21,395 nt of DNA from an uncultured Rhodospirillaceae bacterium (GTDB lineage: Bacteria > Pseudomonadota > Alphaproteobacteria > RF32 > CAG-239), in NCBI GenBank assembly GCA_900313355.1, contig OMQZ01000167.1, positions 1-21,395 of the forward strand, given 5' to 3'. Of the stretch, positions 10,544 to 21,395 are shown in pieces (the first letter of the stretch is position 1; every line of letters starts with the position of its first letter). A program made the translations under genes and the position numbers. The notes under the pieces were generated by a model. It was not told where the DNA came from. It saw only the letters and a list, made by a program, of their open reading frames with translations, and did no database searches.

Positions 10544-10573
10544 ACTTTTTCACCGAGTCCTCACTTTTCCATT

Positions 10574-10599
10574 AAAAAAAACACCCTTTCGGGTGTTCT
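10574..10599 (-). terminator. Rho-independent terminator of tRNA-Ser(GCU)
   Basis: On the minus strand AACACCC, loop GAAA, GGGTGTT and eight T form a strong GNRA-capped terminator six bases after the tRNA CCA. Confidence 0.9.
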
Positions 10600-10604
10600 T
10601 TTAT

Positions 10605-10693
10605 TGGCGGAACGTAGAGGACTCGAACCTCTGCATCCTTTTAAGGGGATGACGGATTAGCAATCCGCTGTATTACCACTCTACCAACGTTCC
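10605..10693 (-). tRNA. tRNA-Ser (anticodon GCU)
   Basis: An 89-base class II tRNA. The acceptor stem GGAACGT/ACGTTCC closes the molecule, with discriminator G and encoded CCA. The anticodon loop TTGCTAA (anticodon GCT in DNA) sits on stem GCGGA/TCCGT and reads AGC/AGU. A long variable arm CATCC/GGATG is characteristic of serine tRNA. The T-arm is AGAGGTTCGAGTCCTCT. Its promoter is TTGACG-17-TAAAAG. Confidence 0.96.
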
Positions 10694-10846: not shown

Positions 10847-11206
10847 ATGCAAAAAACGACCAAACTGGCCTTACTGGCAGTTTTAGCCGTCGCCGGCTTT
10901 TGGGGCGGAGAGGAGCTTTATGCAAAAAACCATCAAAATGATACAAACGAACCCCAAATAATCATAGCCGAAAATGCTTCCAGTGGTGTTTGGGATAAAA
11001 CAAAAGATGTTACCTCGGATGTCTGGAGCGGCACAAAAGAAGTTGCCTCAGATGTTTGGGATGGCACAAAAAAAGTCAGCTCCGACGTCTGGGACGGCAC
11101 AAAAGAAGTCGGTTCCGACATCAAAGACGGCCTGAGCAATGATGAAACGACAGCCAAACATCATAAAGATGAAACTCATACCTCAACCACTACCAAAACA
11201 AATTAA
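10847..11206 (+). CDS. Small secreted protein with four 11-residue amphipathic repeats
   Basis: A 119-residue protein. The N-terminal signal peptide (KLALLAVLAVAGFWGGEELYA) is followed by an acidic linker. Residues 48-91 are four exact-length 11-residue repeats with consensus V-W-D-G-T-K-E-V-x-S-D: VWDKTKDVTSD, VWSGTKEVASD, VWDGTKKVSSD, VWDGTKEVGSD. A fifth decayed unit starts IKDGL, and a His/Lys/Thr-rich tail follows. Eleven-residue periodicity with TK-E-V is the hallmark of membrane-surface helices such as LEA group 3, apolipoprotein and synuclein types; this is an analogy of pattern, not shown homology. GAAAGGA lies about seven bases upstream of the ATG. No clear promoter is visible in the 110 AT-rich bases before it. 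The gene converges on kdsA across a shared terminator. Function unknown. Confidence 0.8.
   Translation: MQKTTKLALLAVLAVAGFWGGEELYAKNHQNDTNEPQIIIAENASSGVWDKTKDVTSDVWSGTKEVASDVWDGTKKVSSDVWDGTKEVGSDIKDGLSNDETTAKHHKDETHTSTTTKTN
10988..11119 (+). repeat. Four tandem 33-bp coding repeats
   Basis: Each unit begins GTTTGGGA or GTCTGGGA/GTCTGGAG, contains ACAAAAGA or ACAAAAAA and ends in GAT or GAC. They encode the 11-residue repeats. Differences between units are mostly synonymous or conservative (for example GAT/GAC, GTT/GTC), suggesting the repeat is kept at the protein level. Confidence 0.85.
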
Positions 11207-12407: not shown

Positions 12408-12435
12408 AATATATCACAAGCGCAAAAATTGTCAA
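12408..12435 (-). promoter_or_regulatory. Promoter of the small gene
   Basis: Perfect TTGACA (12430-12435), 16-base spacer, TATATT (12408-12413) on the minus strand. It starts seven bases after the duplicated copy of the tRNA-Ser(UGA) terminator. Confidence 0.7.
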
Positions 12436-12442
12436 TAAAATT

Positions 12443-12480
12443 AAAAAACACCGACACAATGTCGATGTTTTTTTGTTGGC
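12443..12480 (-). repeat. Second copy of the tRNA-Ser(UGA) terminator segment
   Basis: Identical in 37 of 38 positions to 12623-12660, exactly 180 bp away. The repeat includes the last tRNA bases GCCA plus the whole terminator hairpin. Just beyond it (12481-12498) the similarity to the tRNA 3' end continues weakly (GGCAG, then GATT). Confidence 0.9.
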
Positions 12481-12592
12481 TTCAATGGCAGGATTGGCTT
12501 GATTTTTACAAAATCTGCGCCGCGCCTGCGCTCATCGCAGATGCGACCGGCGTTCTTTCGTCCGCCTTTCGCTTGCCGTCGAACTCTTCTTT
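12481..12592. other. GC-rich segment between the two terminator copies
   Basis: From 12511 to 12580, 45 of 70 bases are G or C, in sharp contrast to the AT-rich flanks. It holds several small hairpins (CTGCG/CGCAG near 12526-12540, AAAATC/GATTTT near 12499-12514, GAACTCT/AGAGTTC at 12581-12601). Reading frames across it on both strands overlap the tRNA and lack ribosome sites, so I take it as non-coding. It may be a relic of an inserted element or a member of a dispersed repeat family. Confidence 0.6.
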
Positions 12593-12601
12593 CCAGAGTT
12601 C
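12571..12601 (-). repeat. Inverted and direct copies of the tRNA-Ser(UGA) T-arm
   Basis: On the minus strand GAACTCTGG (12593-12601) is the exact reverse complement of the tRNA's CCAGAGTTC. After GAAAG-type loop bases, AGAGTTCGA (12579-12587) repeats the T-loop in sense, followed by CGGCAAGC. The layout matches that after tRNA-Val. Confidence 0.8.
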
Positions 12602-12622
12602 TTATCTCGCTTTCCATCAACA

Positions 12623-12656
12623 AAAAAACACCGACACAAGGTCGATGTTTTTTTGT
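12623..12656 (-). terminator. Terminator of tRNA-Ser(UGA)
   Basis: On the minus strand ACATCGAC, loop CTTGT and GTCGGTGT form the stem, flanked by A7 and T7. The stem begins a few bases after the CCA and is the core of a much longer palindrome (12593-12685). Confidence 0.88.
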
Positions 12657-12746
12657 TGGCGGAAAGGCAGAGATTCGAACTCTGGGAGGGCTCGCACCCT
12701 CGACGGTTTTCAAGACCGCTGCATTAAACCGCTCTGCCACCTTTCC
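12657..12746 (-). tRNA. tRNA-Ser (anticodon UGA)
   Basis: A 90-base class II tRNA. Acceptor stem GGAAAGG/CCTTTCC, discriminator G, encoded CCA. Anticodon loop CTTGAAA (TGA in DNA) on stem GCGGT/ACCGT reads UCN codons. A long variable arm (GAGGGT...GCCCTC) identifies serine. T-arm CAGAGTTCGAATCTCTG. Promoter TTGACG-17-TATATG lies just upstream. Confidence 0.97.
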
Positions 12747-12764
12747 ATCTTCGAAAGTGATACC

Positions 12765-12793
12765 CATATATCTTAAAAAAAATCCCTCGTCAA
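12765..12793 (-). promoter_or_regulatory. Promoter of tRNA-Ser(UGA)
   Basis: TTGACG (12788-12793), 17-base spacer, TATATG (12765-12770) on the minus strand, 18 bases before the mature tRNA. Confidence 0.7.
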
Positions 12794-12883
12794 GTGTTTT
12801 TGTTTAAGATATACAAAAAATACTTGATTTTATCTTCCAATCAGCTAACGTTAAGCTTAAATTAAATCATTTTGAGCACTTTG

Positions 12884-21231: not shown

Positions 21232-21308
<77 letters not shown>

Positions 21309-21339: not shown

Positions 21340-21395
21340 ATTGGTGATATAAAAAACCGCTCGAACTTGTGAAAAACAAGTTCGACTACAAGCGA
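21340..21395 (+). repeat. Inverted and direct copies of the tRNA-Val T-arm, continuing past the edge
   Basis: CTCGAACTTGTG (21360-21371) is the exact reverse complement of tRNA bases 21280-21291. ACAAGTTCGA (21376-21385) is a sense copy of the same T-arm. The window ends in CTACAAGCGA, matching CGGCAAGCGA after tRNA-Ser(UGA). Confidence 0.8.

Follow-up and report, generated by a model that had tools for sequence, protein, structure and literature searches.

Follow-up of a long palindrome predicted behind a tRNA gene in the analyzed DNA stretch (the window, 21,395 nucleotides of one contig) shows that it belongs to a small repeated unit, which carries the end of its own tRNA and is found behind many different tRNA genes in uncultured gut bacteria. 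The unit is very probably of the TLR (RtT/TLR) type known from E. coli, as the tRNA-linked repeats at E. coli tyrT/tyrV, lysV and lysQ share its anatomy. Taken as a whole, the observations are better than evenly likely to be explained by a TLR-type unit with a small, mobile, folded core, the arms of which are re-made at each tRNA.

Reverse-complement alignment of the palindrome arms (12593-12635 and 12641-12685, plus strand) gives 38 identities, 5 mismatches and 2 gaps over 45 columns, exactly the positions and counts originally predicted. The prediction had also held that an ordinary terminator would not suffice to explain them, and this was borne out: with the terminator masked (tRNA 12657-12685 against 12593-12620), the palindrome score was reached by 1 of 5000 shuffles, so that a similarity no better than that of shuffled controls, named beforehand as speaking against the mirror, was not what we found. 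The palindrome reading was correct as far as it went, and it covered only the left part of a larger repeat unit. It had missed a 38-nt direct repeat (12443-12480 and 12623-12660, 97% identical with one base different between the copies, spacing 180 nt) with a folded core between the copies.

Read on the minus strand, the 180-nt unit behind tRNA-Ser(UGA) comprises tRNA positions 58-76, a terminator, an antisense T-arm, a copy of positions 49-57, the folded core, a second 58-76 copy and a second terminator. The tRNA is intact (12657..12746, with positions 58-76 at 12657-12675 and positions 49-57 at 12676-12684). It is followed by the first terminator hairpin of the unit (12617..12656), by the antisense arm that mirrors the acceptor part and T-arm and forms part of the left palindrome arm (12593..12616), and by a sense copy of the T-stem 5' strand and T-loop (49-57 region, AGAGTTCGA; 12579..12587, coordinates inferred from the neighbors), for which the predicted fold shows pairing with the antisense arm. 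The folded core occupies 12496..12578 and contains hairpin A (12549-12566) and hairpin B (12535-12546); R1, a covariance model built from 30 cores (alignment A1), matches it at 12520-12584. The second 58-76 copy (12477..12495) is decayed, having 15 identities, 3 mismatches and 2 gaps relative to the first, and the second terminator (12443..12476) is a direct repeat of the first; all these features lie on the minus strand. The locus holds a single unit and no tandem. A search of the whole window against Rfam at the gathering score yielded no family for the repeat unit, and in Rfam searches of seven loci with E up to 5 all non-tRNA matches fell under the cut-off. Both the tRNA and the repeat are overlapped by open frames of 102-115 aa on the two strands of 12429-12807, which probably do not represent genes.

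The same layout had been predicted at the other two tRNAs of the window, and the antisense arm is indeed present at all three (dinucleotide shuffles: 0/500 each for Ser-TGA and Val-GAC, p=0.008 for Ser-GCT). On the plus strand, tRNA-Val(GAC) (21232..21308) is followed by an antisense T-arm (21360..21371) and by a 49-57 copy with the first core bases (ACTACAAGCGA, 21376..21395), where the contig ends. On the minus strand, tRNA-Ser(GCU) (10605..10693) is followed by an antisense remnant, probably of a collapsed unit (10554..10580); another core type stands behind the same tRNA in four relatives. Among the 29 tRNA genes examined in the window's genome (31 tRNA-model hits), 25 were testable and four were cut by contig ends. 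The antisense arm was significant in 12 of these 25 (p<=0.008), Arg-CCG gave p=0.02, and 12 had no arm, so the arm is not universal genome-wide, and the absence of a mirror arm at other tRNAs, which the original prediction named as counting against it, is seen for 12 of the 25 and not for the 12 with a clear arm. Several contigs of this genome stop at tRNA genes, as repeats would cause.

A second core type, composed of CGAAAGG and a long hairpin followed by GATTTGTTAATGAG...GTTACAAATC, has similar arms and was observed behind tRNA-Ser(GCT) at L069, L071, L072 and L073, in all four of which the copy begins at A58, as well as at L008 and L009 in the window's own genome, L009 having its second part only. 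A further repeat type behind tRNA-Ser(TGA) (L061, L064, L065) has a duplication that begins in the acceptor stem (CTCTCCGCCA) and not at A58.

Matches to R1 were found in 101 of the 107 genomes searched in the host's family, with 1 to 21 cores per genome, and in 12 of the 385 genomes sampled across the class; five of these 12 belong to the host's family. Loci were read in five of the seven genomes outside the family (the other two being G339 and G486): L199, L204, L205 and L206 fit in having a tRNA end and a core, and L207 showed neither tRNA end nor arms. L199, at the start of contig G313:C8 of another family's genome, is a strong core match (78.5 bits) that may reflect contamination or transfer. 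Loci L039-L068, retrieved by a tRNA query, are left out of the tRNA-association counts; A1, the source of R1, partly includes them.

The nine near-complete genomes contain 115 cores and 360 tRNA hits. A same-strand tRNA lies upstream within 100 nt of 75 cores, at 101-700 nt from 20 and within 1500 nt of one more (96/115); by arithmetic, about 0.15 cores would be expected by chance to have a tRNA within 100 nt. The remaining 19 cores have no tRNA upstream in the retrieved stretch. Five of these are at contig edges. Most of the other 14 open with either a tRNA end that is truncated or a preceding unit's copy, neither of which is clear at the start of L171, L321 and L330. The 75 tRNA-adjacent cores follow 75 different tRNA genes for 14 amino acids and 25 anticodons, and occupancy is patchy, with a core within 100 nt of about one tRNA in five (75 versus 360 tRNA hits). 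In a further sample of 47 of 59 hits (the 12 left out being mainly repeats of earlier loci), 12 had no upstream tRNA, five of them near a contig edge. Units in relatives are 161-184 nt long and gene-free (eight measured), and occur in tandem at L149, L150, L156 and in G034:C3, which has four. Two candidate islands of 16-22 kb (G074:C3 91908-108110 and G034:C6 2487-24788) extend from a tRNA, suggested by its length to be tRNA-Gly, to a displaced unit starting CCCGTTACCTGCTCCA.

Covariation establishes that the structure of the core is conserved, as judged from two alignments. The consensus structure was chosen from a MAFFT alignment of 30 cores, in which 94.0% of cells are paired and 8 of 10 pairs covary; four measures were reached by 0/500 shuffles, and the fifth (further pair types) by 36/500. 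In the alignment of 116 cores (103 distinct), made with the R1 model itself, 92.7% of 1011 cells are paired and double-sided changes occur in all 10 pairs; all five measures were above the values of every one of 500 shuffles, and pairing in shifted structures is 23-55%. Helix A loops are mostly of the GNRA type. In helix B, 26 of 103 rows have tandem G-A in place of two Watson-Crick pairs, and a tandem GA motif is reported for the RtT RNA in PMC7657543. Wobble pairs are rare in the core helices (15 GT and 10 AC of 1011) compared with the tRNA T-stems of the same genomes (25 GT and 4 AC of 250), a hint that the folded core matters on both strands or as DNA.

The joints of the 75 tRNA-adjacent units place the unit between T-loop positions 57 and 58, as read from their sequences, so that the upstream tRNA remains intact. 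Behind the core, the tRNA-end copy begins at A58, and a perfect 19-nt A58-A76 copy is present in 36 units and not in the other 39. The sense copy in front of the core begins at position 49, as identity to the tRNA is 81-97% at positions 49-52 and 11-41% at 43-48. In the 46 units with both borders exact the core is 66-96 nt long and ends at the next A58, and a terminator is present in most printed units.

The antisense arm exceeds shuffles at p<0.01 in 69 of the 75 units (p of 0.01 or more in six) and beats at least 95% of non-cognate tRNAs in 61, failing in 14. It is specific to its own tRNA at positions 49-52 and 59-62. Over 63-75 it is at most 16 points above non-cognate tRNAs, and below them at 64 and 75, so that the mirror is mainly one of the T-arm; the description of the left arm as an antisense copy of the tRNA 3' part is right, with this correction from the units of relatives. 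At tRNA position 57 the arm matches in 33%. Opposite positions 58 and 57 the arm reads TT in 30 of the 75 units (with G57), the plain complement TC in 15 and GA in 13, with the others split, which mostly weakens pairing right at the insertion point. The mean arm score is 20.8 of 28 in units with a perfect second copy and 20.2 in those without.

This anatomy can be compared with that of the E. coli repeats. PMC8144298, which cites Egan and Landy 1978, Rudd 1999, and Bosl and Kersten, counts 22 TLRs at ten loci in E. coli K-12, three of them at rRNA operons. It defines them by a stretch of 18-19 bp shared exactly with the 3' end of the RNA upstream, dates their first description to 1978 and states that no function was known for them before its own rRNA-linked sRNAs, of which RrA/B/F bind Hfq and CsrA. 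Two Salmonella serovars differ in the number of a 175-bp rtT repeat, according to PMC2658671. Our K-12 test set comprised 47 genes (46 tRNAs, one 5S) at eleven chosen loci. A non-genic copy of the own end with 18-19 identical bases is listed behind 12 tRNAs, of which 11 count because the copy listed for argY belongs to argZ. No end copy was found for the rrfB 5S gene by a search that demanded the last 15 bases exactly; an 18-bp copy there is reported in PMC8144298.

At tyrT/tyrV, four RtT RNAs (RF00391, 133-138 bits) lie between exact 19-nt copies of tRNA-Tyr positions 58-76. The antisense T-arm reads GGGGAAGGATGAGAAGCTTC in three and GGGGAAGGGTGAGAACCTTC in one, with the GA variant at 58'57', AAGGTTCG is the copy of the T-stem and loop, and the core ends with GAGT or AAT before the A58 copy. 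Like the window unit, these repeats stand directly behind the tRNA, here in tandem units of 175-178 bp. At lysV and lysQ the order of the window unit recurs, from the terminator through the antisense arm and the sense copy to the core; in the short lysT/W/Y/Z and arg units, by contrast, the stretch printed contains no antisense arm. The core stretch AACGTTGC...GCAACGGCCCGAAGGGCGA stands behind both Lys and Arg tRNAs of E. coli and, slightly changed, behind Tyr, each time with the tRNA's own end.

The defining traits of TLRs are found in the gut genomes as well: the cores lie directly behind a tRNA gene (75/115 within 100 nt, and tRNA-Ser for the window unit), perfect copies of the tRNA 3' end are present (36/75, the distal copy of the window being decayed), and one to five tandem copies occur (four in G034:C3, one in the window). 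Compared with E. coli, tRNAs for 14 amino acids carry units in the nine genomes, and a single genome has up to 21 cores. RF00391 also matches six E. coli lys units (46.7-60 bits) and is above its gathering score of 45 in none of 17 gut genomes, the three sub-threshold matches being in G046 (best 29 bits). R1 is weak on tyrT/tyrV, where the four copies are the top four of 17 matches in 2 kb (19.4-13.1 bits; next 5.1), and found nothing on the E. coli lys and arg TLRs. The unit belongs to the tRNA-linked repeat kind, with a core outside the reach of the Rfam RtT model.

Sequence comparison across the nine genomes establishes that the arms follow the local tRNA and that similar cores occur behind different tRNAs. 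Cores sharing at least 85% identity form 43 pairs in which the two tRNAs are different and also differ in sequence at positions 49-52, 16 of these pairs being within one genome; the pairs involve 38 units, tandem copies counted apart, and are not independent since they share units. In these pairs the 49-52 copy matches its own tRNA at 3.71 of 4 bases and the partner's at 1.34, and matches fully in 66/86 versus 0/86 cases. Pairs examined side by side include Pro/Arg in G034, Met/Ser in G020, Lys/His in G061, Lys/Pro in G005 and Arg/Lys in G003. With same-genome same-tRNA copies excluded, the nearest core stands behind a different tRNA in 91 of 95 cases, a count in which the nearest same-tRNA relative may simply be missing among the nine genomes.

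On one reading of these data, the core would be a mobile element, small and folded, that recognizes the T-loop sequence GTTCG|A. The antisense arm, which spans the insertion point, could be guide-like, and the arms may be re-made from the target; one possible route, template switching at the palindromes of the T-arm and terminator, would leave a functional tRNA in front. We give this mobile-core mechanism about an even chance. The broader claim that TLRs are mobile, with the 66-96 nt core inserting at 57|58 of any tRNA gene and re-making its arms, and with the antisense arm as a regenerated guide, is a tentative one. In nine pairs inspected by eye, the shared segments stop at the core borders and the arms there are not homologous, which favors movement of the core with newly made arms. 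Several findings count against a mobile core, namely the imperfect second copies (39/75), the cores without an upstream tRNA (19/115) and the tested enzyme families, none of which explains all the core genomes. The arm scores, similar regardless of the perfection of the second copy, also do not fit fresh copying from the target.

The main rival is gene conversion, whereby the units would be old and fixed per tRNA, their cores being homogenized within a genome and units being lost by recombination between direct repeats; we regard it as rather unlikely. It would account for the cores being most alike within a genome, as similarity behind different tRNAs has a mean of 0.576 and a 90th percentile of 0.762 in the same genome versus 0.541 and 0.692 between genera. 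It is also favored by the antisense arms, imperfect even beside perfect direct copies, and by tRNA-Ser(GCT), behind which the same core type is found in four relatives and looks vertically kept. Gene conversion does not readily explain why similarity stops sharply at the core borders, nor why cores of other genera are no more alike behind the same tRNA (0.538) than behind different ones (0.541). Syntenic sites moreover differ inside the genus: beside kdsA, the unit behind tRNA-Ser(TGA) is present in the window and in L069 and absent in L071 and L072, and the distal terminator of the window unit matches the empty site of L072.

Less likely still is that the unit is retained for its transcript, which would act in the processing of tRNA 3' ends or as a small RNA, as proposed for the rRNA-linked RrA/B/F of E. 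coli; such a role would not exclude mobility. The strong structural conservation of the core, the mostly GNRA-type loops of helix A and the Hfq and CsrA binding of RrA/B/F stated in PMC8144298 are consistent with such a role; the patchy occupancy of about one tRNA in five, the imperfect second copies in 39 of 75 units and wobble pairs rarer than in tRNA stems speak against it.

It is highly improbable that the units are integron-like cassettes or tRNA islands whose attachment site is the core and whose movement depends on a tyrosine recombinase. Like integron cassettes, the units can be tandem, have a fixed site and folded ends, and genes lie between two cores at L208, L211 and L212. Integron joints carry a GTTRRRY box, and the sites of tyrosine recombinases need a 6-8 bp overlap. 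The units described here differ in having no integrase link found, no genes in the eight measured, and a 57|58 joint without such a box, the shared sequence beginning at A58 and giving no 6-8 bp overlap. Two further points weaken the cassette idea: most core-distant cases start with a tRNA end that is truncated, as ordinary islands would leave it, and some core-rich genomes have few tyrosine recombinases. These enzymes were found in 49 of 49 genomes, and the core-rich G020 and G003 show two PF00589 proteins only, leaving no indication of a dedicated integrase of the integron kind. Finally, a chance extension of an ordinary terminator, which does form part of the palindrome, is refuted by the masked shuffles (1/5000) and by the significant antisense arms elsewhere (69/75).

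At L212 (G099:C10), positions 949-2626 encode a MunI-type restriction enzyme and an MT-A70 methylase between two units behind tRNA-Pro, possibly an island inserted into the repeat.

Candidate enzymes and vectors for a mobile core were also considered. An IS200/IS605-derived element was rejected, as the Y1 transposase is found in 5 of 17 genomes and missing from 12, and so is not common to the core carriers; an enzyme may act from outside. Reverse transcriptase (4/17) and IS110 transposase (0/17) were discarded as drivers for the same lack of a common presence. A plasmid vector was set aside since the plasmid match spans 42 bases only, and a search of viral contigs with the exact core pattern returned nothing. 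A phage vector was likewise rejected: MT836861, marked UNVERIFIED, carries a tRNA-Gln with the same repeat unit among bacterial-looking ORFs. This locus (L359, MT836861.1, 1431-1700), filed as bacteriophage, is possibly misfiled gut alphaproteobacterial DNA. MITEs and palindromic repeats such as REP and RPE are likewise small, folded, gene-free and many-copy; unlike them, the unit sits at one point of a T-loop copy and its arms match the local tRNA.

In the open-licence papers searched we found nothing on the mobility of tRNA-linked repeats, on exact joints over many tRNAs or core covariation, on a guide-like antisense arm weak at 57/58, or on cores that resemble each other at different tRNAs while their arms match the respective tRNA. 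In one bacterial family, 101 of 107 genomes have 1-21 such cores, with tRNAs for 14 amino acids represented, and this makes the origin of each repeat's tRNA end answerable by comparison of close strains. Elsewhere in the window, a small ORF at 10847-11206 encodes repeated WDxTKEV motifs with no Pfam match, and a similar ORF is present at L359 (2419-2808).
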